Source: SAR92 clade bacterium H231 (GTDB lineage: Bacteria > Pseudomonadota > Gammaproteobacteria > Pseudomonadales > Porticoccaceae). From it: a stretch of DNA of 64,000 nt. This document shows positions 3,911 to 19,942 of this stretch, piece after piece. Below the pieces are notes generated by a model, which ran no database searches, was not told the DNA's origin, and saw only the letters and a program-made list of their open reading frames with translations. Positions within the stretch are counted from its first letter, which is position 1; every line of letters begins with the position of its first letter. Where the stretch lies: positions 62,001 to 126,000 of the forward strand of contig JAOALC010000004.1 in NCBI GenBank assembly GCA_025153775.1, read 5' to 3'. The translations under genes and the position numbers were made by a program.

Positions 3911-4444
3911 TTAGGACTCTTCGCCATTTTGGATAGGTGCTCTTTGGGAATCCATCTTTTCCCACCCATGACCATCGAATGGGTCGACACCAAGTTGCTG
4001 CAATATTGACGGAAAATCAACCATGACCCAGTTGTCGACAATTTTTCCATCAACAACTTTCCAAAAATCCATATAGCGAATTTCGATCTTTTTCTGAGTT
4101 GCTGGGATGCCCATAAAGTCACCGGAATGCACCGCCTCTTGGCGCCCAAATGCCGAGCACCATTCACCCTCGGTTACTCTTGCTTCGTCGATACAGACTT
4201 TATCAGAAAAAGCAGCTTGAAATGGGCGCTGCCAATTTTCTTGAAATTCATTGAGGCCGACTTTATAGCCGCAACCAGCATTTCCTATCCAGCGAAATGA
4301 TTGACTAAAAAATCTATCCATGGTGTCAATATCGTGATCATTGAGACCGTCCACCATGGAATCAATGACTGCCAAAGTTTCAGCAGTTTTACTGAGGTCA
4401 TTGTTGGCCGTTAGTGGGGCTTGAGAGGGTCTAGATCCCTTCAT
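3911..4444 (-). CDS. Single-domain SnoaL/NTF2-like protein
   Basis: This 177-residue cytoplasmic protein corresponds to just the C-terminal half of its neighbours. It has WIGNAGCGYK in place of their WYGPxGIG, then FQENWQRPFQAAFSDK, and the closing block DNWVMVDFPSILQQLGVDPF. It is the last gene of a leftward three-gene operon, 24 bases behind the gene at 4469-5473, with GGAGA about 9 bases before its ATG. The single domain suggests it either lost the N-terminal half or represents the ancestral unit. Its change from Tyr-Gly-Pro to Ile-Gly-Asn in the first motif may mark a different ligand. Reaction unknown. Confidence 0.78.
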   Translation of the reverse strand: MKGSRPSQAPLTANNDLSKTAETLAVIDSMVDGLNDHDIDTMDRFFSQSFRWIGNAGCGYKVGLNEFQENWQRPFQAAFSDKVCIDEARVTEGEWCSAFGRQEAVHSGDFMGIPATQKKIEIRYMDFWKVVDGKIVDNWVMVDFPSILQQLGVDPFDGHGWEKMDSQRAPIQNGEES

Positions 4445-4468
4445 AGTGTATGTCTCCGTAGAATAGGG

Positions 4469-5473
4469 TTAAGAAATTATATTTTTACAGCGCTCAAGGA
4501 TGTCTATGCCCTGCTGCTTAAGCCACCAGGGCAAATCAATGATGACCCAGTTCTCCGCGAGTTTATCACCTTCCCGTCGATATACATCGACGACGCGCAT
4601 ATCGACTCGGCAGTCATTTCCCGGGAGACCCAAAAATCCACCGGTTGGTGTATGGGTCAAATTGGGCCAACCAAAAAAGCAGGCGTAGTCGCCATCGGCA
4701 TAGCGGCAAATATGACCGTTATACACTTTGTCTTTAAGAGCTTCTCTAAAGGGGTAGGAGTGCTGTTCCTGATAGCGGCGAATCGTATAGGTCGATCCAA
4801 TACCGGCAGGCCCATACCAGCTCATATCAGAGTGCCATGATCGCTCCAATACTTCAGGAGGATAGCGGTCGTCACCTGAGTGATTTAGCTCATCTAGATC
4901 AGCGATCATTTGGTTGAGCACCGCCATGGTTTTTTGCGACTCACTTTCGGGTTGGCTGGCTATCTGAATACCATCGTGAGTTTTAGGCCCGGGAACAATG
5001 CCAGAGGCACCGGTTTGTATTGGTAGTGGATTTATACCTGCTTGGTGCATAACGCCAATAATGTCACAGAAAAAACTACTGCGAACGATCTTTCCATTCC
5101 TTACATTGTGGAATTCTGCATAGCGTAAATAGGCCATCTTGCCAGTGGCTGGAATGCCTAACCAATCATTATCAAAGAGCCCTTGCAAGTGACCCATGCT
5201 AGTGACCCACTGAGTTCCGTCTACCTCGTTAGTGCCCCCCATAAAGACATCTTGCCGGCGACTGACCGGTGACCAAGCATCTAAAAATGGCTTCCAGAAT
5301 GCCTCAGCTACTCCAGAAGCGTCGCTTTGCTCTTCAAAGGGGTATACGCCATACCAATGATAATCATCAGCAATAAATTGACCAATAGTCTCGTTAATAT
5401 TCTGCGAAGTGGATTTTTCCACTGCAGCAAAGTAATCGAGGATAAGTTGCTTACTAGAGTTAAGATCGGTCAC
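4469..5473 (-). CDS. Two-domain SnoaL/NTF2-like protein
   Basis: This 334-residue cytoplasmic protein has two SnoaL-like halves. The N-terminal half has HWYGVYPFEE and a long WVTSMGHLQGLF strand region. The C-terminal half has WYGPAGIGST, ALKDK and ENWVIIDLPWWLKQQGIDIL, matching the landmarks of the neighbours. The frame opens with GTG at 5473, 5 bases after the stop of the upstream gene. An AAGGG ribosome site lies inside the end of that gene, so translation is probably coupled. It is the middle gene of the leftward operon whose promoter is at 6526-6555. It may form a mixed complex with its paralogues. Reaction unknown. Confidence 0.78.
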   Translation of the reverse strand: MTDLNSSKQLILDYFAAVEKSTSQNINETIGQFIADDYHWYGVYPFEEQSDASGVAEAFWKPFLDAWSPVSRRQDVFMGGTNEVDGTQWVTSMGHLQGLFDNDWLGIPATGKMAYLRYAEFHNVRNGKIVRSSFFCDIIGVMHQAGINPLPIQTGASGIVPGPKTHDGIQIASQPESESQKTMAVLNQMIADLDELNHSGDDRYPPEVLERSWHSDMSWYGPAGIGSTYTIRRYQEQHSYPFREALKDKVYNGHICRYADGDYACFFGWPNLTHTPTGGFLGLPGNDCRVDMRVVDVYRREGDKLAENWVIIDLPWWLKQQGIDILERCKNIIS

Positions 5474-5478
5474 CGAGG

Positions 5479-6486
5479 TTACCCTTCTCGTGCTTGTTGA
5501 AGTAAATCAACGCCAAATTGTTCAAAGAGGTCAATCATGTCAACAAAGACCCAGTTTTCGACAAACTTATCACCACGGCGCAGCCAGAAATCCATGCCAT
5601 TAAAGTTGATCCGGTTGCCGGTAGCTGCTGCGCTGAGATAGTTACCAATATGTTGCGATGTAACACCTGCCCAGCCCGAAGACCCAACAAAATTACCCTC
5701 GGCGAATAGACTGTCTAGATCCTGCACTTTGCGGTCAGGAAATGCGGCAAGCCAGTGCTGCTGATGGTAGTCTTGAAACTCCTTTAAGCTAAGGCAAGCG
5801 CCTATTCCGCCAGGCCCATACCAGTTTACATTGTCATGGAAAAAATCAGCAACACCCATGCTGGTGAGATTTTCTTCATCAAAATTATTGAGCCCTTCAA
5901 AAAGAAACTCTCGTATCAATCGCATCGACTCAGCGGTTTCAGACGCACTACTCTCGTCAAGTAAAACCCCGTTAATACCTGTCGGACTGGGATACACAAA
6001 ATCCGTCCCATGGCTTGGGGGCAGAGGGTTTTTGTTGATTTGCTGTAAAAAGTCAATGATATCGAAAAGCGTATACATCTCTACAATCTTGTCATCCTCA
6101 AAGCGGAAGAATTCCCCCCACCTTAACTTGATCACCTGATGCGATGGTTCAAAACCAAGCCAGGATTTCGCGAAAACACCTTCATAATAACCAGTAGCCC
6201 CAACCCATGATTGGCCATCCAGACTATTGTCGGCTTTACCTTGGCTTATGCCACCAAAAAGCATATGCGTCTCTCGAGACACACCCTCAAATGCATCAAC
6301 AAAGGGCAGCCAAAACGTCGAGCACCACTCTTCAGTGCTTGAGCAAGATTTAAAAGGCTTGGGGCCGTGCCAAGCAAAATGGTTACCGACCTGCTGGGCC
6401 AGTGCAGCCTGTGCTTTTTGAGGATCCTGGAGTAACTCAAAGAGATTTGCGATGGCAAGTTTGTTATTTGATACGATACTGTTCAT
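5479..6486 (-). CDS. Two-domain SnoaL/NTF2-like protein, first gene of operon
   Basis: This 335-residue cytoplasmic protein starts the leftward operon. The N-terminal half contains HFAWHGPKPF and SWVGATGYYEGVFAKSWLG. The C-terminal half contains WYGPGGIGAC, AAFPDRK and ENWVFVDMIDLFEQFGVDLL. The two halves look like an internal duplication of one NTF2-fold unit. GGAAA lies about 10 bases before the ATG. The promoter 40 to 70 bases upstream carries the 16-nt motif shared with the TonB receptor promoter, so this operon and the receptor are probably switched together. No catalytic function can be given from sequence alone. Confidence 0.78.
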   Translation of the reverse strand: MNSIVSNNKLAIANLFELLQDPQKAQAALAQQVGNHFAWHGPKPFKSCSSTEEWCSTFWLPFVDAFEGVSRETHMLFGGISQGKADNSLDGQSWVGATGYYEGVFAKSWLGFEPSHQVIKLRWGEFFRFEDDKIVEMYTLFDIIDFLQQINKNPLPPSHGTDFVYPSPTGINGVLLDESSASETAESMRLIREFLFEGLNNFDEENLTSMGVADFFHDNVNWYGPGGIGACLSLKEFQDYHQQHWLAAFPDRKVQDLDSLFAEGNFVGSSGWAGVTSQHIGNYLSAAATGNRINFNGMDFWLRRGDKFVENWVFVDMIDLFEQFGVDLLQQAREG

Positions 6487-8665: not shown

Positions 8666-9442
8666 ATGGCTGCTAGTAACCCACATAATAACTTTAGACA
8701 GAAACTGTTATCAGGGGACTGCTTAATCGGCACCTTTGTAAAGACACCATCGATGATGGTTGCAGAAGTATTGGCAAGTACCGATTTAGATGTTGCCTGC
8801 TTCGATGCCGAACACTCCCCATTCGATCGTCGCGATATAGACAGCTGTTTGCTGGCTTTTCGCGCAGAGCAGAAACCCGCGTTGGTTAGGGTAGCCTCGT
8901 CATCAGCGGATCAAATACTCAATGCACTAGATTGTGGCGCCACGGGTGTGGTGATTCCACATGTTGATTCGCCTGAAAAAGCCTTGGCCTGTGTTAATGC
9001 GGCCAGATATGGGAGGACAGGACGGGGATACGCAGGTTCTACTCGTTCGGCGGGTTATGGCGCAGCCAGTGTTGCTGACAACATCAGTCTCAATCAGTCA
9101 GAGACCACTGTAATAGCACAAATTGAAGATATTGCTGCTGTCGATAATATTGATGCGATAGCCGCTCAAGAAGGCATTGATTGCCTGTTTATCGGCATGA
9201 TGGACCTAACCGTTGCTCTTGGCGCGACGGCTGCGACTGATAAGATCGTCGTTGAAGCGGCTGAACAAATCTGTATTGCCGCTAAGGCAAATAATAAGAA
9301 ACTCGGTATCTTCGTGCCTGATATTGACAGTATCGAATTTTGGCGAAGTCGAGGTGTTACACTTTTCCTAATGGCCTCAGACCATAGTTTTATCAAGCAG
9401 GGGGCCAAAAGCTTGGCAGAATCAGCTCGGGGGAATTTCTAG
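8666..9442 (+). CDS. HpcH/HpaI-family aldolase
   Basis: A 258-residue TIM-barrel aldolase of the HpcH/HpaI (citrate lyase beta/2-oxo-4-hydroxyacid aldolase) superfamily. Signatures are LIGTFVKTPS near the N-terminus, FDAEHSPFD (about 45-53), the GRGYAGSTRSAGYG block (about 121-134), QIEDIAAVDNID with the metal-binding Glu, and CLFIGMMDL with the metal-binding Asp. The family splits 2-keto-4-hydroxy acids into pyruvate and an aldehyde using Mg2+ or Mn2+. The specific substrate is not determined. It ends the LacI-hydrolase-aldolase unit and supplies the most concrete evidence that the island is catabolic. Confidence 0.9.
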   Translation: MAASNPHNNFRQKLLSGDCLIGTFVKTPSMMVAEVLASTDLDVACFDAEHSPFDRRDIDSCLLAFRAEQKPALVRVASSSADQILNALDCGATGVVIPHVDSPEKALACVNAARYGRTGRGYAGSTRSAGYGAASVADNISLNQSETTVIAQIEDIAAVDNIDAIAAQEGIDCLFIGMMDLTVALGATAATDKIVVEAAEQICIAAKANNKKLGIFVPDIDSIEFWRSRGVTLFLMASDHSFIKQGAKSLAESARGNF

Positions 9443-10112
9443 AGAGTTAAATCGCTTCTTATCCAATGCCGCACCAATGAACTAGCAATGCAATTAGATG
9501 CAGCTTTTTTATAGACTTGACAAAGCTCCTATAGTTTAAGCTGATGCTTGACACGACCAAAGGCCTGTAGCGCAAACTCACTACGGGTGACTCAGCGCAT
9601 TTTCGTGGGGATCTTATCCACAGTATTGAGAACTGCTGGGACTGCGAATTAGTTGCTTACCTTGTAGTCACTAGTCAGTGACCTCCCCACCAAGACTAAA
9701 AGCATCAAGCTGCGTAACCGTAAACGGATGTTAACGAATTTTACAGAATCTAAAAGACCCATACATGACCAGACATACAGGCTGATATATCAGGCGGCTA
9801 CTGATCGCTATTGGTAGCCTAGGAGTTTACACCAAGCTTAGGATTAATTTGCGCTACCAAACACACCTGCTCTTGCAGCAACCAATAAATGGCGGTTTAG
9901 CGATGCTAAAACCTATGAATCCAATTTTTTATTTAATGTACAAATAGGTCGATATTTCAAAGACTGTATAAGGCTCGAGGTACTCTTCAGAGGTCAGTCC
10001 AAGGGTAGTTCGCGATCGCAAAATGATTCTAGTGATGGAATTTCCAAAACCTAATTGTTACAACTGGCGTCGCTGCGTAAAGATAAAATTATTGGGGGTA
10101 ATTTTGGGGGGT
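9443..10112. other. 670 bases without a recognisable gene
   Basis: No open frame with a plausible start, RNA gene or repeat is seen here. All frames are broken. It may be decayed sequence: it lies between the catabolic island and the element junction and has no clear terminator for the aldolase gene. Confidence 0.4.
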
Positions 10113-10157
10113 ATATTCCCACTCAAACCATTAACCCTTTGATTTGAATGGGAATAT
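10113..10157. repeat. 15-bp inverted repeat beside the attachment site
   Basis: ATATTCCCACTCAAA (10113-10127) pairs with TTTGAATGGGAATAT (10143-10157) with one mismatch around a 15-base loop. It ends 9 bases before the attachment core, on the chromosomal side. It could be the terminator of the tRNA before insertion, since it would lie just downstream of the uninterrupted gene. It could also be a protein-binding site. Confidence 0.5.
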
Positions 10158-10166
10158 ATTTGCATT

Positions 10167-10186
10167 TGGCGGTGAGAGAGGGATTC
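10167..10186. repeat. Attachment site core, left copy
   Basis: TGGCGGTGAGAGAGGGATTC is identical to 19101-19120, the last 20 bases (with CCA) of tRNA-Ser on the opposite strand. After this core the two copies diverge. It marks the left junction of the element. Confidence 0.85.
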
Positions 10187-10233
10187 ACCCCGATAGCATA
10201 TGAACGTTGACTAATCCATGTAATAAGCTATAT

Positions 10234-10256
10234 TTGCTACAAATTTTTGCTACAAA
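10234..10256. repeat. Paired arm-type integrase sites, left end
   Basis: TTGCTACAAA occurs at 10234-10243 and 10247-10256, a 13-bp pitch. The same pair with the same pitch and orientation occurs at 19027-19049. They lie 47 bases inside the left core, as expected for recombinase arm-binding sites, and just before the integrase start. Confidence 0.6.
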
Positions 10257-10266
10257 TGTTCTTAAT

Positions 10267-11544
10267 ATGGCTAACAATCTGATCCTACGCGGCAACACTT
10301 GGCATGCTCGGCTGGTGATCCCAACTCATCTGCGCTCTGCATTCAATCGTCGAGAATTCACACAATCATTGAAAACTTCATCTAAGTCGATAGCTGCGAA
10401 ACTGGCAAATGATAAAGTGGCACTTTGGAGGCTACAACTTGATGCTGCAGCAGGAGATGCAAATGCTGTCGAGGTGCTAGCGTCCGAGTTGGCTGTTAGG
10501 GTAAAAGAGGAGGAATCTGAAGGTCAATATGCTGATGTCACCACAGGCATGACAAACAGCTCCGCTTTCGCGGAACATTATGCTGAAGGACTGAGCGAAA
10601 CTGATAGACAAAGATTCTATGGCATACTCACAGGAAGACGCACTCTACCGCTTCATACTTGGGTACTGGAGTGGGCTGACAAAGCCTATTCCAATGCTAA
10701 AACCAATCAGATAGCAGTTAACGAAATACGAAACTTTTGTGTTTATGCCCCTTCAGTCTCTGATGTGACTAAAAACAATATTAGACGGTGGTTAAAATCT
10801 GAGACACGATCGAAGAAGACTATTGAGCGCGCGTTAAGTTTCGCTAGGAAATACTGGACTTATCTCCAAGATGTGGGCGTCGTGTCTGATGATGCCTATC
10901 CTTTCATGGGCGTCAAACTGCCAGATACGCTTAAAGCTCCAGAAAGCAAGCGTGAGCCCTTCAATGAAGCCGATATTCCTATACTATTTGAGGCATTACA
11001 GGTCGATAGATCGGTCTATTTGGCATCGTTAATCGCTTTGCACAGCGGCGCAAGACTCGCTGAAGTACTGGGACTTACAAAATCCGACGTAGTCCACATC
11101 GAAAACTATGCATGCTTTCACATTGCTGGCACAAAGACTAAGGCTTCAAATAGATACGTACCGATCCACAATGCACTACAACCTGCTATACACCTATTAC
11201 TGAATGAGAGCGATGAACAGTGGTTGATACCTAATGTGCGATCTAAAGGCGGTGCATACAGACGTGGAGATGTCCTTGGTAAGCGATTTGGTCGACTGAA
11301 GACGAAACTTAACTTTCCAAGCACTAAAGTCTTTCACAGTCTCCGAAAAACCTTTATTACAGTATGCGAGCAAGCTGAAGCTCCCGAGGGCGTTGTAGCG
11401 GACATTGTAGGACACGAAAAACAGACGATGACCTACGGACTCTATAGCGGTGGCAGTAGCATTCCTCAGCGCGCCAGAGTTATGGAGTCACTAGATTTTG
11501 GTTTAACAATATCTCCAATAGGCCTTCTAAAACCCCAAGAGTGA
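10267..11544 (+). CDS. Tyrosine recombinase (site-specific integrase)
   Basis: This recombinase of about 425 residues presumably integrates and excises the surrounding element at tRNA-Ser. The N-terminus (MANNLILRGNTWHARLVIPTHL) is the DUF6538-like arm-binding region found in many tRNA-targeting integrases. A core-binding helical domain follows, then the catalytic domain with R in HSGARLAEVLGL, a K near GTKTKASNRYVPIH, HSLRKTF (H and R), GHEKQTMTYGLYS and the expected Tyr nucleophile in the last of these. The frame extends upstream to TTG at 10207. That part covers the arm repeats, so ATG at 10267 is the more likely start. Autoregulation by arm-site binding is plausible. Confidence 0.88.
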   Translation: MANNLILRGNTWHARLVIPTHLRSAFNRREFTQSLKTSSKSIAAKLANDKVALWRLQLDAAAGDANAVEVLASELAVRVKEEESEGQYADVTTGMTNSSAFAEHYAEGLSETDRQRFYGILTGRRTLPLHTWVLEWADKAYSNAKTNQIAVNEIRNFCVYAPSVSDVTKNNIRRWLKSETRSKKTIERALSFARKYWTYLQDVGVVSDDAYPFMGVKLPDTLKAPESKREPFNEADIPILFEALQVDRSVYLASLIALHSGARLAEVLGLTKSDVVHIENYACFHIAGTKTKASNRYVPIHNALQPAIHLLLNESDEQWLIPNVRSKGGAYRRGDVLGKRFGRLKTKLNFPSTKVFHSLRKTFITVCEQAEAPEGVVADIVGHEKQTMTYGLYSGGSSIPQRARVMESLDFGLTISPIGLLKPQE

Positions 11545-11688
11545 GAGTCTAAATAGGTGCTATATACCACTATATAACGCCCACTAAGCCTCCGCAGCCA
11601 ACGTACCACATAGCACCTAAGAAGTAGCATCTTAATCGTTATGGACTTCTGTTGTACCATGACTGCTTACATAAATAGGGGTATGCCC

Positions 11689-11964
11689 ATGATTGAAAGA
11701 AGAAAGCACACACAATCAGTCACATCATTCGCTACTTTGACATTGATAGCACTGCTGTTCCCGAATACTGCTTTAGCTTTTCGCTATGGAGGACCTGGGA
11801 CGGGAATACCGATCTATGTAATTACAGTAAGCCTCTTTTTGGTGCTCTTGGGTTCAGCGCTTCACAAAAAAATAATAGACGCGTATGAAGCAGCTTTGAT
11901 TGTCGGTCTGATACTCTTCTGTGTATTTGCATATCTTTATGACAAAAATCTTCTGCAATCTTAG
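11689..11964 (+). CDS. Small membrane protein of unknown function
   Basis: A 91-residue protein with a hydrophobic N-terminal segment that ends Asn-Thr-Ala-Leu-Ala and looks like a signal peptide. A Gly-rich FRYGGPGTGIPIY stretch and two more hydrophobic segments (about 37-55 and 64-82) follow, ending in YDKNLLQS. AGGGG lies 7 bases before ATG 11689. In-frame upstream starts at 11683 and 11641 are possible. It sits alone between the integrase and the polymerase-like gene. I recognise no family. It could be an entry-exclusion, immunity or holin-like protein, but nothing in the sequence decides this. Confidence 0.55.
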   Translation: MIERRKHTQSVTSFATLTLIALLFPNTALAFRYGGPGTGIPIYVITVSLFLVLLGSALHKKIIDAYEAALIVGLILFCVFAYLYDKNLLQS

Positions 11965-12080
11965 CGCAAATATTTTCCATTTATATAGCGGCTAAAAACA
12001 CTATTTACCCACTCCTCAGCCTCCCCAGCCAACCCTGCTTCACAGCACGCCACAGGACGCACCACATTGCCCTGAGAAGC

Positions 12081-12176
12081 CTGATATTGCTGACCTTAAG
12101 GTTCTTGACGGGTGCGCCTAGGATGCCTCTGAGAGGCTCTGTATTGCCTTCTAAGCGGGGCTGTATTTGACCTTTT
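12081..12176. repeat. Possible iteron-like degenerate repeats before the polymerase-like gene
   Basis: Three related strings, CTGATATTGCTGACCTT (12081-12097), CTGTATTGCCTT (12139-12150) and CTGTATTTGACCTTTT (12161-12176), lie in the 242-base gap, along with a perfect GCCTCT-G-AGAGGC palindrome (12125-12137). Together they may form a replication origin or operator. A 19-base string at 12015-12033 also resembles 11584-11602 (about 17 of 19 bases). Confidence 0.3.
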
Positions 12177-12242
12177 TAGTGGCTTTGAAATTAATCCCAA
12201 TCCCGCTTGGCACACTTTTTAATTACATGCTTCAATAAGCAG

Positions 12243-13661
12243 ATGACAGCATCAGAATCCAACAGCCACTACATCAAATACCACCATATCTCTGATGATC
12301 CTGCTCTGATTGCAAAGGCGCAGTCGCTGGTTGATCTGTATAGACTCTCCAGGCAACAACAGCGGCAAAGTAACCGCGACTTCGAGGCTGCATTCAACGC
12401 AATTCTTACCAGCATTGACATCTTCCAAGCCTATGATGGGTGGTCTCTCTACATCCCCACTAACAACAACCTTTTTAGTGGAACCCTTAAGCGCAACAGC
12501 ACCTACACAACAGACCTTCTTGATGCTCTTAAATGGTTAATTGCTAAGGGCTATCTCGAGCAGGTCTCTGGCGTAACTAGACCTAAAAAGAAGAACAGTA
12601 AGAAACGACAGTGGCTACCCAAAGCCTATAAACTAACTGCCAGATGGTTGTCAGAGATATCAGACAAACCTCTATCAGACCCTAGACTGATACGCAGGAA
12701 TCCTTTAGCTGGTTATTGGGAGTGTAGGAAGAAGATTGATGGCGCTAAAGTTGCTGTAACACCTAGCGACAGACAATTGAAGCTACACACAGCAATGCTG
12801 GCGGACACTGACCAGGCGCTAGAGGCTTATGACAAGTTCATGGTCAATGTTGTAACTAGTATTGGGCATAGCGCTATAAATCCTGCACAGCTCTCTATGA
12901 TGAGGATATTTAGTAATGGCTCTCTAAAACAGGGTGGCAGGTTGTACTCGGCTGTACAGAACTACAAGAAATACACTCGGAAGTACCTTTACTTCGATGA
13001 TGAGCCAACGCTAGAGATAGACTACAGCGCCTTCCATCCTCACTTAATCTACCACCAAGCAGGTCAAGAGTTTAAGGGTGATGACCCCTATGTCATAGAA
13101 GGCTTTGACCGTGATCATGTAAAAGTAGCTTTCAACATAATGCTGAACAGACGAGGCTCTAAAGATAATAAGTCTGCAGCAGGAACCATTAGCGAAGAGC
13201 TGGATGTAGACCTACTACAAGCAACTGCTCTAGAAAACGCTATCTTGCAGCTGCATGCGCCAATAGCGGGCCAGTTTAACTCTGGCGCAGGGCTTCGGCT
13301 TCAGCGCTTAGACAGCAATATAGCGCTGTCTGTGGTTAATCACTTTATAACAAAGCATCAACGCCCTATTGTCTGCATACACGATAGCTTTATTTGCTCT
13401 GTTAGAGATACTGAGACGCTAATACTGCTAATGGCTGACTACTACAGCATTATTGTAGGAGAGGTGGGAATGCGTGGCATAAAAGGCACAGCGCAAGAGT
13501 TCTCTGAGCCTCTAACAGATGCTATCAACAAGTGCTTTGAGCAAGACACTGATGGAATAACTGCTAGTAGTTGGGACGCTTTAGTCGCTAAAGAAGGTGT
13601 TAATGATCCTCCTAGCATTGAAGCAACTGAAGAGGATGTTAGTGACGCTGAAGCGTTATAG
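12243..13661 (+). CDS. Single-subunit-polymerase-like protein (T7 RNAP/Pol A palm motifs)
   Basis: This protein has about 472 residues. The N-terminal part (about 20-150) is basic with winged-helix-like segments (LLDALKWLIAKGYLEQV). The C-terminal half carries three blocks in polymerase order. Motif A-like is LEIDYSAFHPHLIYH (Asp about 260). Motif B-like is RDHVKVAFNIMLNRRGSKD (Arg 290, Lys 294), spaced like the O-helix of T7 RNA polymerase. Motif C-like is VCIHDSF (His-Asp 380-381). HDSF is the T7-type form of motif C. No exonuclease domain is seen. It is probably a replication or transcription enzyme of the element, or a primase-like polymerase. The C-terminal about 40 residues are acidic and probably disordered. 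The start may be ATG 12243 or TTG 12207; neither has a strong ribosome site. Confidence 0.6.
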   Translation: MTASESNSHYIKYHHISDDPALIAKAQSLVDLYRLSRQQQRQSNRDFEAAFNAILTSIDIFQAYDGWSLYIPTNNNLFSGTLKRNSTYTTDLLDALKWLIAKGYLEQVSGVTRPKKKNSKKRQWLPKAYKLTARWLSEISDKPLSDPRLIRRNPLAGYWECRKKIDGAKVAVTPSDRQLKLHTAMLADTDQALEAYDKFMVNVVTSIGHSAINPAQLSMMRIFSNGSLKQGGRLYSAVQNYKKYTRKYLYFDDEPTLEIDYSAFHPHLIYHQAGQEFKGDDPYVIEGFDRDHVKVAFNIMLNRRGSKDNKSAAGTISEELDVDLLQATALENAILQLHAPIAGQFNSGAGLRLQRLDSNIALSVVNHFITKHQRPIVCIHDSFICSVRDTETLILLMADYYSIIVGEVGMRGIKGTAQEFSEPLTDAINKCFEQDTDGITASSWDALVAKEGVNDPPSIEATEEDVSDAEAL

Positions 13662-13767
13662 ACTGTGCAGGTGCTATAGCGGTATAGAGGCATAGTAACA
13701 GCACAGCCATCTTCCCTATTGTAAGATGATTAAGGAGAAGCGCTCCGGTCAAGCGAACAAATATAGC

Positions 13768-14289
13768 TCATTGACTCTGGAGTGTTGGATCAATTGAATC
13801 TAGCTCAACTTCCTCTACGTTCTTATCAGCTCTCAACTTCAGGATCACCGCCTCTAAATCTAAAATATTAGGCACTTTAAAAACACCTCTTTGTATGGTT
13901 GCAAGCGGTTTTACAAAAACTATTGCATTTTCGGCCGCATACTGCTCGAAATTGGGCAGTTCAACGAATTTTACAATTATAGACCCATTGATCAGCATCT
14001 CTCGATTGTCTGTGCCGATTATTGAGATATACTCATTATCCCTGAGCAGCAGGCTTTTTATTGAACCCTCCTTCTCCAACCTTGGGCTAAGCTCTTCGCT
14101 TTTTTGCAATTCGATACGCTGAAAACCTGTTTCAGTCTTCACTACAATATCTTCAGCCGAGATTTCCAAATTGGGAAGTACGTAAATACTCCGGTCAATG
14201 GCGGTACTTTGTGAATATGCCGCCAAAGAAAATAAGATACAAATCAAAGCACCGATAACAGTCTTCAATTTAGAGATATTAGTTGCCAT
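13768..14289 (-). CDS. Secreted subtilisin-prodomain-like (inhibitor I9-like) protein
   Basis: A 173-residue exported protein with a signal peptide ending around AAYSQS (residue 27). The C-terminal half reads like the propeptide of subtilases: SIIVKF strand, GVFKVPNILDLEAVILKLRADKNVEEVE. The last part matches the usual prodomain ending, in which LRADPNVE precedes the catalytic domain. Its ATG overlaps the last 11 bases of the upstream protease gene, so the two are translationally coupled. The protease has no such prodomain of its own. I infer that this protein folds, inhibits or protects against the protease in trans. Family match is by eye; confidence in the coupling is high. Confidence 0.65.
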   Translation of the reverse strand: MATNISKLKTVIGALICILFSLAAYSQSTAIDRSIYVLPNLEISAEDIVVKTETGFQRIELQKSEELSPRLEKEGSIKSLLLRDNEYISIIGTDNREMLINGSIIVKFVELPNFEQYAAENAIVFVKPLATIQRGVFKVPNILDLEAVILKLRADKNVEEVELDSIDPTLQSQ

Positions 14290-17200
14290 AAACTTTTATT
14301 CCCCATTTTATTAGTGTTCCAGTCGTGCCATCGTTAAGGTAGTCATTAGCCGCTATAGTCCAAACGCCCTCAATACTTTCTCCATATAAGCCGCTAACTC
14401 CTATATCGAAAAGAGTGCTAGATGGGTTGGTGCTCAGATTAGTCATGGGTTGCATAATATTAATAATCGTCCCATCGGGCGACATTAAGCGTAATCCAAC
14501 AGAGTTAGGTATTGAGTGACTAAACTGAACGGAGACCCTAACATATTCAACAAAGTCATTGGATCCTGCTGGCTTTGTAACTGTTATGGTTGACGTGGTG
14601 TTGTTTGGATAGACAATTCCTGAGTTAATAACTCCTGACTCTGCATAGGGGGTACTTACAAAAATTCCTCTACTGTCCGGGGTGTATGATGTCGCTGTCG
14701 TAACCGCCTCCGCAGCATCGATTTTTCCAAAACCGAAACGATTGTGAAATTTATAGCCCGCACTGTTTGTTTCCCATTCATACTGAACAAGTCCTTGATA
14801 AGTGTAGGATAGGGATGGCGAAACTTGGTCAGCAGTAGTAGCAAGAATATGCTTAACATCTCTCCAGGTTAAATCTGGATTAGCCTCTAGCATCAGAGCT
14901 ACTACGCCCGCTACGGACGGAGCCGCTGAAGAAGTTCCATTAAAAGTCGATGCATAATTACAGCTAGAGTTTTCAGAATTATCGCCATTATTGAATGTGT
15001 TATAATTTCGCCCAGATCCAGCGCTAACTCCTGTCCTTGTATATCCCTTGGAACACGACGCCTGATCGACCGTCATAATTGCAGGTTTATTGCCAGAAGA
15101 GTGATTCAAACCAGAGTGGTCGGTATTGTTTCCTGTCTCACCACCAAAGCCAGAAATCCATAAACCTGATCCAGGCGTTGAGTAACTACTGATAGTTCCG
15201 TCCGCATTGAGAGCAGCAACAGGGAGGATATACGGAGATCCTCGCTTTACATCAATCATTGCCTCTGTGCAGCTCAAATAAGTGCCACATGAAGCGGATG
15301 GATATTGTGCAAAGCCATTTCCTGCAGATTGAATATAGATTGCTCCTTTACCAGCCCTTAAATTAGTAACCCCACTTATTAAAGCCGCCTCTTGACTTGA
15401 ACCCATGAAGCTTGGCAAGGCATAGCCACTCTCGGTGGGTCCAGAACCATAACTCATATTGTATATATCAACGTCCACAGCGACTGGCGGGCTGGAGCCC
15501 CAGGATTGTAGCTGATTACTCAAATCTTGAGATTTAATGAAATTGTACCCAATAATTGATGCATTAGGCGCAACACCTCTTACGCCAATGTTATTCCAGC
15601 CTTTCGCAGCAATTATTCCAGCAACACTCGTACCATGATCACCGGATACATTATCACTAGTGGGGTCGCTATCAGAATTCACAAAATCCCATGAACCTGC
15701 GACAACATTATCAACTAAATCCTCATGGCCTAATTCAAGACCTTCGTCTATGACGGCAACGGTAACACCCGAACCTGTTATACCTCCCGAAATTACCGTA
15801 TCGACGTTTAGATCAGCCCCTGATGTCCCAGGATTTGTTGCAAAATTAGTTTGACCCACGTTATTCAAATGCCACTGGTATTGATAAAGAGGATCTGTTT
15901 TCAAACTTATAGACACTGTAGCGCTGGGCGAATCCACACTCCCATCGTTCACCTTGAAAGTGAAGCTCTCAGATGACGCGGCCTGAGTGTCAGAAGAAGT
16001 AGTGTAAGTGATCGTTGAACCGCTAATAGTAGCTGATCCAAAGGAACCATTTGACACTATAGAATAAGTGAGCGGATCACCATCCTCGTCAGTGCCCGCA
16101 AGCGATATTGTACCTGCAGTTTGCAGCTGAGGAAGTAAGTTTAGATAGTAACTCGCGGGAGTAGCGATTGGGGGATCATTAACATCAGATACAGAAACAC
16201 TAACACCCTGAGATATTTCGTTAACACCATCATTAACGGTCACTGTGGCGCTGTAGCTAGATTTAGTCTCATAGTTAGGCGCTGATGCGAAGCTCAGAAC
16301 ACCTGAAGAGCTAATCACTAACTCTGAACCAGAAACACTGTAAGTGAGAGCATCACCTTCAGCATCAGACGCTGATACAGAACCAACTCCTGTTTGATTC
16401 TCTGCCGCACTAAAGCTAGATGAAGATGAAATAACTGGCGCTTCATTGACGTTAGTCACAGCAACAGTAACCTCCTGCGTGGCGCTATTAACACCATCAT
16501 TAACAGTCACTGTGGCGCTGTAGCTAGATTTAGTCTCATAATCAGGCGCTGATGCGAAGCTCAGAACACCTGAAGCGCTAATCACTAACTCTGAACCAGA
16601 AATACTGTAAGTGAGAGCATCACCTTCAGCATCAGATGCTGATACAGAACCAACCCCTGTTTGATTCTCTGCTGCACTAAAACTCGCTGAAGAACCTATC
16701 ACTGGCGCAACATCATTGACGTTAGTGACAGCAACAGTAACCTCCTGCGTGGCGCTATTAACACCATCATTAACAGTCACTGTGGCGCTGTAGCTAGATT
16801 TAGTCTCATAATCAGGCGCTGATGCGAAGCTCAGAACACCTGAAGCGCTAATCACTAACTCTGAACCAGAAATACTGTAAGTGAGAGCATCACCTTCAGC
16901 ATCAGATGCTGATACAGAACCAACCCCTGTTTGATTCTCTGCTGCACTAAAACTTGCTGAAGAACCTATCACTGGCGCAACATCATTGACGTTAGAAATT
17001 TCTACAATTACCTCTTTGATTACTACCTCTACGCCATCACTCACAGATATTGAGACGCTATAGCGAGTTTTTCTTTCGAAGTCAGGGGCAGCTTTGAAGA
17101 CAAGATTATTCTGATCGTCCAAGCTAAAGCTCTCTGAGTCAATTCCACTCAAGCTGTATGTTAGGGCATCTTCATCCACATCTATCCCGAAAACGGTTAC

Positions 17201-18697
17201 CACCGAAACCTCATTCTCCGGGACAATATAACGAGGTAACAAGTTGTTAAAGGAAGGTGCATCATTTACAGCCTTCACATCAACCGTTACCAAACCTGAT
17301 GCGGATTTATCACCTTGCACCACTGTATAGTTAAAAGTATCTATACCATTAAAATCAGGATTCGGAGTATAAGACACAACCTGATTGTTAAGCTCAACTG
17401 ACCCATTCGAAGGGCTCTCCAAGACAATATTAAAAGGCGCGGAAAGTACCAGTGAATCATTGGACAGCACAAGTATGTCTAATGCTTGATCCTCACTAGT
17501 AGAAACAACATCTCCTGATACCCGTACCTCGGGGGTTAAATCATTGGCGCTTACATTCTGGTCAGACGCTATATAGTTAATGATATCTGACTTGTAACTA
17601 TTCAATTTCTCCTCTGAGGCTGTTCCATTAGCGACGGATTGTATATCTGATTGAAAAGTGCTTGTAGCAAAGCCAAAAAGCGCGGCGTTCAACGGCAGGT
17701 CATCCTTAACCTCAATGACTGGCATTACCGAAGCTAATGTATCGGCTAAAACTGTTTGAGATTCTTCGGAAAGTGCTAAGGACTTTGAGGAAACAATATT
17801 GTTGATCACACTACGGATAAAAAGATTATCTTCGATATCAACTTTGGCTTGAGTATCAGCATAGTTCTGCTCCAACTCCTCTGCAATAGATTTGAAGTAA
17901 TCTTGTGAAGTATCGATGCTGATATTGAGATCATTGCTAATATTCTGCATAGCCAGAGCAAGGACAGTGACCTGATTTCCCTTTTCAAATAGAAAGTCAT
18001 AGATTCCACCATCGCCCATCATTGCTACCGGGTCAGTTGTGGCTATAGCAATACTAGAATCTATTCCAAGCGAGGAATGAATATCAGAAGGAATATCCAT
18101 AAATGCCATCACGGTTGTAATCGGTGTAATAGCAGCAAAATCTATGTGTTCATCAAGTTTGTTGACTAACAGCAGATTGTCGAGGAGAACTCCTGAGTCA
18201 AGATCGAAGCCCCCTAGGCTAATTAAATTTCCCTTGGAATATCTAGTTGAAAAACCGCCATTATCATCAGAAATAACTATTTGTTCATCAGAGTCTGCGA
18301 CGAAATTTTCATTTTGGTCAATAAAGATATCAGCAGCCCTTATATAGCCATCAACAGTAACTCCTACTGTGATTTGAAACCCATCAACGGAAACTGATTT
18401 AGAGGACGAGCCTCCTTTACCCGAGCAATTTAGCCCAAAAATATAAGTCTTAGCATCTCCAATGAGTACTGACTCGCTGCCACTCAAACCTTTCTCTCCA
18501 GACCAGTCTCCAGAGGCAATACAAGACGTTGCATTTAGAGAAGTCCAGCTAATACTTACTGTCTCCCCAACTTCCTCTTCAAGCGAGGAAGACTGCAAAT
18601 TTAGATTTGGTACTGGAGGAGGTGTTCCGCCGCCGCTACAGGAACCGAGTAGAAGGGCAAAGAAACTAACCAAAATAAAACCTGAAATATTACGCAC
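14279..18697 (-). CDS. Giant cell-surface lipoprotein subtilase with cadherin-like repeats and P domain
   Basis: A protein of about 1472 residues. A lipoprotein signal ends LLLGSC. An Ig-like segment and a carboxypeptidase-like segment follow (about 20-140), then a helical region, and Cadherin/Ig-like repeats from about 400 to 930, including three 90-residue units at about 571-840. A kexin/subtilisin-type S8 domain follows, with Asp984 (VIDEG), His1021 (DHGTS) and Ser1256 (GTSSAAP). The C-terminal about 130 residues form a P/Homo B domain (GVWTIAAND). The catalytic domain starts QYQWHLNNVGQ without a prodomain before it. Transcription is leftward, and the prodomain-like gene follows. GTG 18697 gives a clean lipoprotein start; the frame extends to TTG 18763. 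It is probably anchored on the outer membrane. Confidence 0.85.
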   Translation of the reverse strand: MRNISGFILVSFFALLLGSCSGGGTPPPVPNLNLQSSSLEEEVGETVSISWTSLNATSCIASGDWSGEKGLSGSESVLIGDAKTYIFGLNCSGKGGSSSKSVSVDGFQITVGVTVDGYIRAADIFIDQNENFVADSDEQIVISDDNGGFSTRYSKGNLISLGGFDLDSGVLLDNLLLVNKLDEHIDFAAITPITTVMAFMDIPSDIHSSLGIDSSIAIATTDPVAMMGDGGIYDFLFEKGNQVTVLALAMQNISNDLNISIDTSQDYFKSIAEELEQNYADTQAKVDIEDNLFIRSVINNIVSSKSLALSEESQTVLADTLASVMPVIEVKDDLPLNAALFGFATSTFQSDIQSVANGTASEEKLNSYKSDIINYIASDQNVSANDLTPEVRVSGDVVSTSEDQALDILVLSNDSLVLSAPFNIVLESPSNGSVELNNQVVSYTPNPDFNGIDTFNYTVVQGDKSASGLVTVDVKAVNDAPSFNNLLPRYIVPENEVSVVTVFGIDVDEDALTYSLSGIDSESFSLDDQNNLVFKAAPDFERKTRYSVSISVSDGVEVVIKEVIVEISNVNDVAPVIGSSASFSAAENQTGVGSVSASDAEGDALTYSISGSELVISASGVLSFASAPDYETKSSYSATVTVNDGVNSATQEVTVAVTNVNDVAPVIGSSASFSAAENQTGVGSVSASDAEGDALTYSISGSELVISASGVLSFASAPDYETKSSYSATVTVNDGVNSATQEVTVAVTNVNEAPVISSSSSFSAAENQTGVGSVSASDAEGDALTYSVSGSELVISSSGVLSFASAPNYETKSSYSATVTVNDGVNEISQGVSVSVSDVNDPPIATPASYYLNLLPQLQTAGTISLAGTDEDGDPLTYSIVSNGSFGSATISGSTITYTTSSDTQAASSESFTFKVNDGSVDSPSATVSISLKTDPLYQYQWHLNNVGQTNFATNPGTSGADLNVDTVISGGITGSGVTVAVIDEGLELGHEDLVDNVVAGSWDFVNSDSDPTSDNVSGDHGTSVAGIIAAKGWNNIGVRGVAPNASIIGYNFIKSQDLSNQLQSWGSSPPVAVDVDIYNMSYGSGPTESGYALPSFMGSSQEAALISGVTNLRAGKGAIYIQSAGNGFAQYPSASCGTYLSCTEAMIDVKRGSPYILPVAALNADGTISSYSTPGSGLWISGFGGETGNNTDHSGLNHSSGNKPAIMTVDQASCSKGYTRTGVSAGSGRNYNTFNNGDNSENSSCNYASTFNGTSSAAPSVAGVVALMLEANPDLTWRDVKHILATTADQVSPSLSYTYQGLVQYEWETNSAGYKFHNRFGFGKIDAAEAVTTATSYTPDSRGIFVSTPYAESGVINSGIVYPNNTTSTITVTKPAGSNDFVEYVRVSVQFSHSIPNSVGLRLMSPDGTIINIMQPMTNLSTNPSSTLFDIGVSGLYGESIEGVWTIAANDYLNDGTTGTLIKWGIKVYGN
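16178..16987 (-). repeat. Three tandem 270-bp coding repeats (cadherin-like units)
   Basis: The units 16178-16447, 16448-16717 and 16718-16987 each encode one 90-residue cadherin-like module. The last two are nearly identical at the DNA level, including silent sites, while the first differs moderately. This indicates recent duplication or gene conversion and likely copy-number variation between strains. Confidence 0.85.
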
Positions 18698-18763
18698 AAT
18701 GACCTGCTTCAACCCAAACGATGAAAGAGATTGGAGTGTATAGAAGACAATATATCTATGCAA

Positions 18764-19026
18764 TAACGTATAATTTTATAGCGAGAAGCTTCTGCCTTAT
18801 GCCTTCACAACCCATTAAAGCTTGCAAACCCTCACACCGCCTCTTTGCGGAATGGTTCTGACTGGTAACCACAAAGCCTCAAAGAGCTACCTAAAGTACC
18901 TCCCCAGATACAGTAACAATCACAAGTACTCAGCAGGCTCCCCCGCCCCCTGTGAAGAAGCCCCCTGCCCTGAAACAGCACAGAAAGCGACTCAATTGAC
19001 TGAATCAGAATAATTAGAAGATGTTA
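18764..19026. other. Element right-end region without a supported gene
   Basis: The stretch lies upstream of the leftward protease operon, up to the right arm sites. It should contain the operon promoter (AT-rich around 18750-18785), but I see no convincing -35/-10 pair. A rightward frame opening at TTG 18822 lacks a ribosome site and is not called. Confidence 0.35.
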
Positions 19027-19049
19027 TTGCTACAAAGATTTGCTACAAA
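19027..19049. repeat. Paired arm-type integrase sites, right end
   Basis: TTGCTACAAA occurs at 19027-19036 and 19040-19049, the same 13-bp pitch and orientation as 10234-10256. It lies 51 bases inside the right core, mirroring the 47-base distance at the left end. Confidence 0.6.
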
Positions 19050-19060
19050 GCAGGCACAAA

Positions 19061-19094
19061 AAAGCCCCAGAAACACTGTAGTTATTGGGGCTTT
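19061..19094 (-). terminator. Terminator of tRNA-Ser, supplied by the element
   Basis: The arms AAAGCCCCA (19061-19069) and TGGGGCTTT (19086-19094) form a 9-bp stem. On the minus strand a T-run follows it, directly downstream of tRNA-Ser. It lies inside the element, so the inserted DNA brings a replacement terminator for the host gene. Confidence 0.7.
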
Positions 19095-19100
19095 AATACG

Positions 19101-19120
19101 TGGCGGTGAGAGAGGGATTC
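19101..19120. repeat. Attachment site core, right copy (tRNA 3' end)
   Basis: This is identical to 10167-10186. On the minus strand it is the T-stem/acceptor 3' part of tRNA-Ser including CCA. Confidence 0.85.
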
Positions 19121-19191
19121 GAACCCTCGAAACGCTATTAACGCTTACACACTTTCCAGGCGTGCTCCTTCAGCCACTCGGACACCTCACC
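19101..19191 (-). tRNA. tRNA-Ser(GGA)
   Basis: A 91-base class II tRNA on the minus strand. The acceptor stem GGTGAGG pairs with TCTCACC, followed by discriminator G and an encoded CCA. The D-arm is GTCCGAGTGGCTGAAGG, anticodon GGA is at 19157-19155 in loop CTGGAAA, a long variable arm follows, and the T-loop is TTCGAAT. It closely resembles the serine GGA isoacceptor of enterics and reads UCC/UCU codons. It is the integration target of the element to its left. Confidence 0.95.
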
Positions 19192-19632
19192 GTAAACTGT
19201 CACCGTTTTCTGTTCTATTAACTAGTCAGGAGCACGGCGTGCTCGTTGCTTCGAGACAAACTAAAGCTTGCCTCTTGTCTCTGCGAGATCGCCCTGCGGG
19301 CGCCCAAAATGCATTCGCATTTTGTCAGCCACTCGGACACCTCACCGTAAACTGTCACCGTTTTCTGTTCTATTAACTAGTCAGGAGCACGGCGTGCTCG
19401 TTGCTTCGAGACAAGCTAAAGCTTGCCTCTTGTCTCTGCGAGATCGCCCTGCGGGCGCCCAAAATACATTCGCATTTTAGCAGCCACTCGGACACCTCAC
19501 CGTAAACTGTCACCGTTTTCTGTTCTATTAACTAGTCAGGAGCACGGCGTGCTCGTTGCTTCGAGACAAGCTAAAGCTTGCCTCTTGTCTCTGCGAGATC
19601 GCCCTGCGGGCGCCCAAAATGCATTCGCATTT
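19171..19632. repeat. Tandem 155-bp repeats containing the tRNA-Ser 5' end (units A)
   Basis: Three copies start at 19171, 19326 and 19481 with a period of 155. Each begins with the first 21 bases of tRNA-Ser (opposite strand) and continues with its upstream sequence. That sequence includes the palindromes AGCACGGCGTGCT, GAGACAAG...CTTGTCTC, GCCCTGCGGGC and AAAATGC-ATTC-GCATTTT. The first copy overlaps the real tRNA. Copies differ by only a few bases. Confidence 0.9.
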
Positions 19633-19863
19633 GCTGATTGTTAAGGCCCTGTAGGGACTTAACAACCCCTTCGGGGCGCCCTTCGTGCGTCCAAAATCCA
19701 TTCGCATTTGCTGATTGTTAAGGTCCTGTAGGGACTTAACAACCCCTTCGGGGCGCCCTTCGTGCGTCCAAAATCCATTCGCATTTGCTGATTGTTAAGG
19801 CCCTGTAGGGACTTAACAACCCCTTCGGGGCGCCCTTCGTGCGTCCAAAATGCATTCGCATTT
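19633..19863. repeat. Three tandem 77-bp repeats (units B)
   Basis: Copies start at 19633, 19710 and 19787. Each contains GTTAAG...CTTAAC, CCCCTTCGGGG and a GCATTCGCATTT ending shared with unit A, so the array can fold into successive hairpins. The second copy has one C-to-T change (GGTCC for GGCCC). Confidence 0.9.
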
Positions 19864-19866
19864 TGT

Positions 19867-19942
19867 CAGCCACTCGGACACCTCACAGTAAACTGTCACC
19901 GTTTTCTGTTCTATTAACTAGTCAGGAGCACGGCGTGCTCGT
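19867..19942. repeat. Truncated fourth copy of unit A
   Basis: This repeats the tRNA-Ser 5' segment (with one C-to-A change where the tRNA starts) and the next 55 bases, then breaks off after GGCGTGCTCG. It is the outer edge of the array. The 135 bases from here to the cyclase gene show no further repeat or gene. Confidence 0.85.

Follow-up and report, generated by a model that had tools for sequence, protein, structure and literature searches.

A family A-type polymerase of the divPolA2/TV-Pol kind in a small tRNA-Ser integrative element of a SAR92-clade bacterium

The 64-kb stretch of SAR92 clade bacterium H231 analysed here (contig JAOALC010000004.1, positions 62,001 to 126,000; hereafter the window) contains an 8.95-kb site-specific integrative element in a tRNA-Ser(GGA) gene, and this element encodes a tyrosine integrase together with a 472-residue protein that, on sequence comparison, we assign to the divPolA2 family of phage polymerases and that carries the defining residues of the TV-Pols. 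We propose that the protein is probably a compact polymerase with a family A fold that primes and/or copies the excised element with the help of host factors. A sequence-only reading of the same DNA had pointed to a polymerase-like protein of about 470 residues, with motif blocks A, B and C, in a small tRNA-integrated element; the gene proved intact, all three blocks are present and the element is bounded by an exact repeat of the tRNA 3' end, whereas the likeness to T7 RNA polymerase on which that reading leaned did not hold.

The reading frame at 12243-13661 (+ strand) runs for 472 amino acids (aa) to a stop codon, and a homologue 72% identical to it (L032, from SAR92 clade bacterium H921, JAOALD010000004.1) begins at the equivalent ATG. 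The gene is present in one copy in its own genome, and comparison with the L032 gene gives a ratio of nonsynonymous to synonymous substitution rates (dN/dS) of 0.14-0.15, a rough value with dS at 1.2-1.3 and near saturation; judged by this ratio, the gene is under purifying selection. Conservation was read from an alignment of 28 rows, of which one is the window protein, 11 come from viral contigs and 16 from genome contigs (L032 among them); L043, the same gene as L023, and L049, a near-copy of L048, were omitted. The features of the polymerase gene are:

12243..13661, + strand: family A-type polymerase gene (divPolA2 / PHROG 4756, TV-Pol-like), intact, 472 aa, ATG start
12243..13661, + strand: polymerase domains, an N-terminal domain (residues about 1-170) and a catalytic core (about 176-410)
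12933..12980, + strand: hairpin G231-G232-R233 plus R246; G232 invariant, R233 and R246 at least 90% conserved
13020..13022, + strand: catalytic Asp D260 of motif A; invariant in 28 of 28 rows
13110..13124, + strand: motif B, R290-x3-K294; K294 invariant, R290 at least 90% conserved
13380..13388, + strand: motif C, H380-D381-S382; HDS in 22 of 28 rows, D381 column invariant (L045 truncated)

Residues R221, G232, E258, D260, D281, Y283, K294 and D381 are invariant in the alignment, and conservation reaches 90% or more at R233, R246, R290 and H380; the L045 row ends before motif C, and what it shows under D381 matches by accident. D260 sits within LEIDYSAFHPHLIYH in the window polymerase. Since the catalytic columns are conserved across the 28 rows, the motif blocks are not a matter of chance.

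The window polymerase matches PHROG 4756 at E 1.2e-38 (residues 53-418 of the 484-aa open reading frame, ORF), as do all 14 members of the first alignment at a cut-off of E 0.1. The divPolA2 proteins were described in 2024 as a phage PolA variant whose palm is active and which lacks an exonuclease, with an unrelated N-terminal domain in place of the usual thumb (PMC11348598, available in part), and the exemplar modelled in the available part of that paper, AUR84708, matches the same PHROG at E 1.8e-91 and the window polymerase directly by BLASTP at E 2e-14 (residues 216-406). Because of the shared PHROG and this direct match we assign the window polymerase, by similarity, to divPolA2. The two have a homologous catalytic core, comparable length (430 vs 472 aa) and an N-terminal domain without clear relatives; the exemplar belongs to a large phage and has FDE at motif C, whereas the window protein belongs to a 9-kb tRNA element and has HDS. 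The TV-Pols of transposons and viruses, described in 2008 as predicted primase-polymerases, are 400-600 residues long and have a hairpin Arg, two Asp, a fingers Asp and RxxxK. An additional N-terminal domain is frequent, and their genes adjoin those of lambda-type integrases, of resolvases or of transposases where mobile elements and restriction-modification (R-M) operons abound (PMC2579912). The window polymerase is of this size, has an N-terminal domain and shows R233/R246, D260/D381, D281 in the fingers and R290-x3-K294, and the family loci have integrases, resolvases (L104), R-M genes near some of them and, in L035, a Bro-N gene that adjoins the polymerase; on this match of definition and context we call the protein TV-Pol-like. 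The class, which the sequence-only reading did not know as described in such elements, is not new: TV-Pols have been known since 2008 (PMC2579912), and the divPolA2 exemplar already published is a homologue of the window protein (PMC11348598, in its available part). MAP_030, which adjoins transposases and was picked in the present analysis as a candidate TV-Pol from the first 50 of the 162 kb of Microcystis phage Ma-LMM01, aligns colinearly with the window family by hhalign at E 0.0051 and 7% probability. In a tree of 40 family members the window polymerase and L032 form one clade (100/100); the deep forks are unresolved, and the tree therefore gives no direction of exchange between phages and elements. 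By these comparisons the polymerases of the elements and the divPolA2s of phages are one family, a connection that is new here.

Relatives detected by tblastn (E <=0.01) are spread over 279 phage records (139 of Vibrio, 115 of Rheinheimera, 13 of Aeromonas, 6 of Pseudoalteromonas, 5 of Shewanella and 1 of Pseudaeromonas) and 3 plasmid records; all are less than 60% identical and none spans 80% of the query. Among bacteria, a protein search found matches in 9 of 94 related genomes and a PHROG profile search in 5 of 369 genomes of the class, the own genome being counted in each. In Shewanella phage KASIA the family member (L002, 7422-8771) lies in a region with annotated RNA polymerase, primase and helicase genes.

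An AlphaFold2 (AF2) model built from the 28-row alignment has a mean predicted local distance difference test score (pLDDT) of 73.9 and a predicted template modelling score (pTM) of 0.70; its core (about 160-400) lies mostly at pLDDT 85-98, the N-terminal 170 residues are its low-confidence part and the C-terminal tail is unordered. Foldseek returned 493 matches to the full model in the PDB at E <=10, 32 of them at E <=0.001, and the best 50 of the 493 are all family A DNA polymerases (best E 5.7e-5), with Bst, Taq, Pol nu, Pol theta and the apicoplast enzyme among the matches and the same few proteins recurring in many rows. A model of the core alone (235 residues, pLDDT 85.6) likewise has family A DNA polymerases as all of its best 50 PDB matches, with a best E of 6e-4 and a template modelling (TM) score to the query of 0.38-0.53, and RNA polymerases are absent from the best 50 for either model. 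Among viral models the top 11 matches (E 6.1e-20 to 4.6e-16) are two Aeromonas phage proteins, the Rheinheimera phage Barba31A 'DNA polymerase' (E 8.5e-18) and eight unnamed proteins. The predicted fold of the core thus resembles that of family A DNA polymerases.

In TV-Pols a thumb of two antiparallel helices stands ahead of the hairpin; in the model, helices 176-181 and 183-200 precede the hairpin and may correspond to it. The N-terminal domain had been called winged-helix-like; its profile matches are to 1xma ('predicted transcriptional regulator', E 0.01) and to two PadR regulators (E 0.27-0.49), all weak, and the description can be kept only tentatively. The single protein has no match in Pfam, NCBIfam or PDB sequences. 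The earlier idea of a minimal polymerase free of an exonuclease stands as to the family A-type polymerase; an exonuclease domain was not found with Pfam or NCBIfam, libraries that miss the polymerase core as well.

The element around the gene has the following parts:

10167..10186, no strand: attL, 20-bp copy of the tRNA-Ser 3' end, left boundary; identical to 19101-19120
10267..11544, + strand: tyrosine integrase with N-terminal DUF6538 (PF00589 E 5.8e-12, PF20172 E 3.5e-12)
11641..11964, + strand: 107-aa ORF, hydrophobic by eye, no family match
11995..12180, + strand: conserved non-coding block of about 180 bp, candidate cis-acting site, with copies in same-genus genomes
13768..14289, - strand: cargo, 173-aa prodomain-like protein, a weak assignment (Fervidolysin_NPro-like, E 0.0043, below the Pfam cut-off)
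14279..18763, - strand: cargo, 1494-aa subtilase (S8) with cadherin/Big_9 repeats and a P-domain, lipoprotein-like start by eye
19101..19120, no strand: attR, the 20-bp repeat as the tRNA-Ser(GGA) 3' end
19101..19191, - strand: tRNA-Ser(GGA), integration target (ARAGORN)

The 64 kb hold exactly two copies of the direct repeat TGGCGGTGAGAGAGGGATTC, 20 bp and perfect (10167-10186 and 19101-19120); allowing up to 3 mismatches adds no further match, and 0 of 100 shuffles gave such a result. The 8.95 kb that it spans (10167-19120) is a site-specific integrative element in tRNA-Ser(GGA). The integrase probably starts at the ATG at 10267, the longest ORF beginning at 10207, and its L032 homologue is 57% identical. 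The subtilase matches PF00082 at E 1.3e-38, PF17963 at E 2.1e-43 and PF01483 at E 8.4e-12. As an empty-site test, window positions 1-22000 were compared by blastn with 11 places in relatives, and the element interior (10212-19035) has no match at any of them; this absence is readable at 9 of the 11, which extend more than 2 kb past the tRNA 3' end (L085 and L094 stop at the tRNA or close to it). None of the 11 places offers a clean empty site, because the left flank differs. The sequence left of attL (10062-10207) resembles DNA beside tRNA-Ser(GCT) in another genome (G028, L085 6473-6620; 87% over 149 bp), and so the left flank may be another element's end. Just 5' of tRNA-Ser(GGA), at 19170-19942, lie tandem 155-nt and 77-nt repeats that include pieces of the tRNA 5' part, and similar arrays are found at the same tRNA in several relatives.

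The pairing of integrase, polymerase and tRNA recurs. The L032 element, about 9.8 kb, has the same plan, with a 20-bp repeat, tRNA-Ser(GCT), the related integrase, the polymerase and a different cargo. Exact repeats of 17-24 bp of tRNA 3' ends flank integrase and polymerase in 5 of the 13 tRNA-bearing loci (17 tRNAs), namely the window, L032, L033 (Met), L037 (Ala) and L039 (Cys); the remaining 8 have no repeat of at least 12 bp, some being cut by contig ends. These attachment repeats define five small tRNA islands, which are new here. Tyrosine integrases accompany 9 of the 18 relatives from genome contigs, and 5 of the 17 genome-contig loci scanned for tRNAs (the 18 minus L045) have none. When 10 chosen neighbouring proteins from 6 loci were compared with PADLOC models (E <=1e-5), 6 matched and 4 did not, the matches including type III R-M (L030) and PDC-M68B (L039).

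A further relative lies at 4181-5539 on a contig of 5648 bp (L104, G025:C11) that carries a Rep_3 initiator, seven 22-bp iterons, a resolvase and ParA; its ends show no exact overlap, and it is plasmid-like from its gene content. That a family member sits on a contig beside an initiator of its own is new here. Two other loci bear on cargo and on remnants. At L105 (G040:C155, 6251-11613), a tRNA (Arg) locus with a 16-bp repeat at 6314/16977 and a DUF6538 integrase, there is a C-terminal polymerase remnant and a cargo pair of the same type as in the window: the subtilases are 47% identical over 655 columns, and the prodomain-like ORFs both weakly match the Fervidolysin prodomain, with no blastp alignment between them. 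Cargo has apparently been swapped between integrases. In L032, outside the polymerase gene, two 79-bp copies (9491-9569 and 10852-10930), 91% identical, look by eye like pieces of the C-terminal part of another polymerase.

Based on the motif C sequence HDSF and on a GSK(D/E) tail, the sequence-only reading had likened the protein to T7 RNA polymerase, and an element-specific RNA polymerase, a minimal T7-like enzyme transcribing the genes of the element or making RNA primers, is the alternative that this likeness would suggest. The order of motifs A, B and C, R-x3-K and HDSF are indeed common to both, but the T7 enzyme has 883 residues, and a T7-type promoter-recognition domain does not seem recognisable in 472. 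With registers taken from the T7 gene 1 and E. coli polA sequences, the fifth position after the motif A Asp is Gly542 in T7, Glu710 in Pol I and His265 in the window polymerase, and among the 28 rows it is His in 21 and never Gly or Glu. The eighth position after the motif B Lys is Tyr in both T7 (Tyr639) and Pol I (Tyr766) and Asn302 here, Asn being found in 25 of the 28 rows. GSKE begins at K+9 in T7 and GSKD at K+11 in the window polymerase, two residues out of register, after an insertion that is missing from 25 of the 28 rows (L032 has GTKN there and L045 a different insertion), and GSKD is private to the window polymerase among the 28. HDSF is present as claimed, but judged from the alignment HDS is a trait of the whole family (22 HDS, 2 HDA, 2 HDG, 1 DDS in L048 and 1 truncated row). 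Membership in the T7-like single-subunit RNA polymerases was rejected on His265, Asn302, the register of GSKD and the length, and since the best 50 PDB fold matches are all DNA polymerases as well, we regard an RNA polymerase of this kind as unlikely. The protein also falls outside DNA polymerase I, having no PF00476 match and His, Asn and Asn for Glu710, Phe762 and Tyr766.

A second alternative is a polymerase for repair, gap filling or recombination that aids establishment, for instance by finishing the strand that enters by transfer or transduction, and has no part in replication proper. In barbaviruses the relatives occur alongside a PolB that the phage itself encodes (PMC11348598, in its available part), the KASIA relative lies near that phage's own RNA polymerase, primase and helicase genes and a Rep_3 initiator is encoded on the L104 contig itself, all of which would suit such a role; that the family repeatedly turns up with integrases and tRNA sites in small elements, and that no other replication gene was recognised in the window element, speaks against it, and we hold it to be distinctly unlikely. 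That the protein is a relative that has degenerated and lost catalysis and now serves in binding or regulation is very improbable, as the catalytic residues of the window polymerase are intact and its gene is under purifying selection by the estimate given above, although some members do have altered motifs (DDS for HDS in L048, FDE at motif C in AUR84708). What we consider likely, then, is a compact polymerase that primes and/or copies its element. According to this model the integrase would excise the element as a circle by recombination of attL with attR, the N-terminal domain of the polymerase would position the enzyme on the element DNA, the core would prime and/or extend DNA on the excised element, host helicase, single-stranded DNA-binding protein (SSB) and replisome would supply the remaining functions, and the element would be copied before reintegration or transfer. 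CcPol, a TV-Pol-group enzyme that primes DNA when bound to MP (PMC7581432, available in part), speaks for a priming role.

Several observations weigh against this model. The five element ORFs that were scanned include no recognisable helicase, SSB or MP-like partner, which counts against full replicative autonomy, and the relative on L104 is probably not the initiator there because the Rep_3 initiator lies beside it. Glu710 and Phe762 are the ribose discriminators of Pol I and are kept in CcPol (PMC7581432, available in part); the window polymerase has His265 and Asn298 at these positions, and DNA as the product is therefore uncertain. According to the available part of the same paper CcPol requires MP in order to prime, and the divPolA2 authors, in the available part of theirs, leave repair or RNA synthesis/transcription open (PMC11348598). 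The fold evidence is modest as well: the TM score of the full model to the query is 0.24-0.30 among the matches listed, and in the viral fold list ranks 24, 35, 36 and 40 are RNA polymerases (E 0.0024-0.079) standing among family A polymerases. The profile-profile comparison that the sequence-only reading had proposed gives a weak result, with the family meeting Pol I by hhalign at E 0.0031 and 10% probability, the GGR hairpin being paired with GRLSS..LQNIP of the E. coli enzyme and motif A with DYSQIE, and a thin two-row T7 RNA polymerase profile at E 0.26 over motif C only. Family profiles found no polymerase among PDB sequences, with weak matches to 1xma, Flp recombinase, PadR regulators and dynein, and family hidden Markov models (HMMs) run against the ORFs of T7 gene 1 and E. 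coli polA found neither T7 RNA polymerase nor Pol I; against the KASIA ORFs they reached the RNA polymerase at E 3.9.

Comparison with known mobile polymerases shows both likeness and difference. Pipolins carry a tyrosine recombinase and use a tRNA site. They are likewise small mobile elements with a polymerase of their own, but that enzyme (piPolB) is of family B and the window enzyme of family A type. The CcPol-MP primase of SCCmec (PMC7581432, PMC10061031, both available in part) shares a mobile-element family A polymerase core with the window element, which lacks a recognised MP-like partner or helicase. A CcPol-MP-type system, in which MP, an OB-fold partner, and a helicase are encoded alongside, was considered for the window element and tentatively set aside: no helicase was found, and the 107-aa ORF has no family match. 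An association with D5-like helicases holds for a subset of TV-Pols only (PMC2579912), and none was seen among the five element ORFs scanned; the TV-Pol N-terminal domain is predicted to be all-helical in that paper, whereas that of the window polymerase is perhaps winged-helix-like. Among the literature matches listed none links TV-Pols or family A polymerases to tRNA-integrated islands, and the term divPolA2 appears in phage context only (one paper and its preprint), the search covering few subscription journals.

Between the integrase and the polymerase lies the conserved non-coding block (11995-12180), a candidate cis-acting site that matches 8 of 50 same-genus genomes, the own included. 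Full-length copies, 65-91% identical, occur at nine loci (the window, L109-L114, L116 and L117), and at 9 of the 9 the block is 3' of a tyrosine integrase and co-oriented with it at a distance of 10-976 bp, although these integrases are of about five types (57% identical to that of the window, 23-28% in part, or without significant alignment). The own genome has a second, partial copy at C1:327879-327980, and beyond the genus 244 sampled genomes of the order yielded one 49-bp match. A structured RNA was rejected for now, the covariation term being +0.58; column-shuffled alignments reach the observed energy in 2 of 100 cases for the forward and 8 of 100 for the reverse strand, so that some forward-strand folding signal remains. 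Rfam has no match in 9400-14300, and single-strand DNA folding of parts of the block gives no signal (z-scores -0.30 to 0.37). A 35-bp imperfect repeat flanking the 107-aa ORF (11568/11999, 77%) was considered as a cassette site and rejected, its second copy being the start of the block. It is a long shot, yet conceivable, that the integrase, the polymerase of about 470 aa with an origin-binding N-terminus and this block form a minimal self-priming replication module of tRNA islands with no helicase or primase gene of its own, and that the polymerase family, with its His gate and no motif B Tyr, was exchanged with large phages, in which it may aid the travel of the islands as satellites.

A gene that had no annotation, with no Pfam or NCBIfam match and a PHROG listed as of unknown function, is now placed in a defined family, and the divPolA2 proteins of phages are tied to the polymerases of small integrative elements with exact ends. 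The islands are compact, testable systems for asking which activity TV-Pol/divPolA2 enzymes have, be it the priming of DNA, its copying or RNA synthesis.
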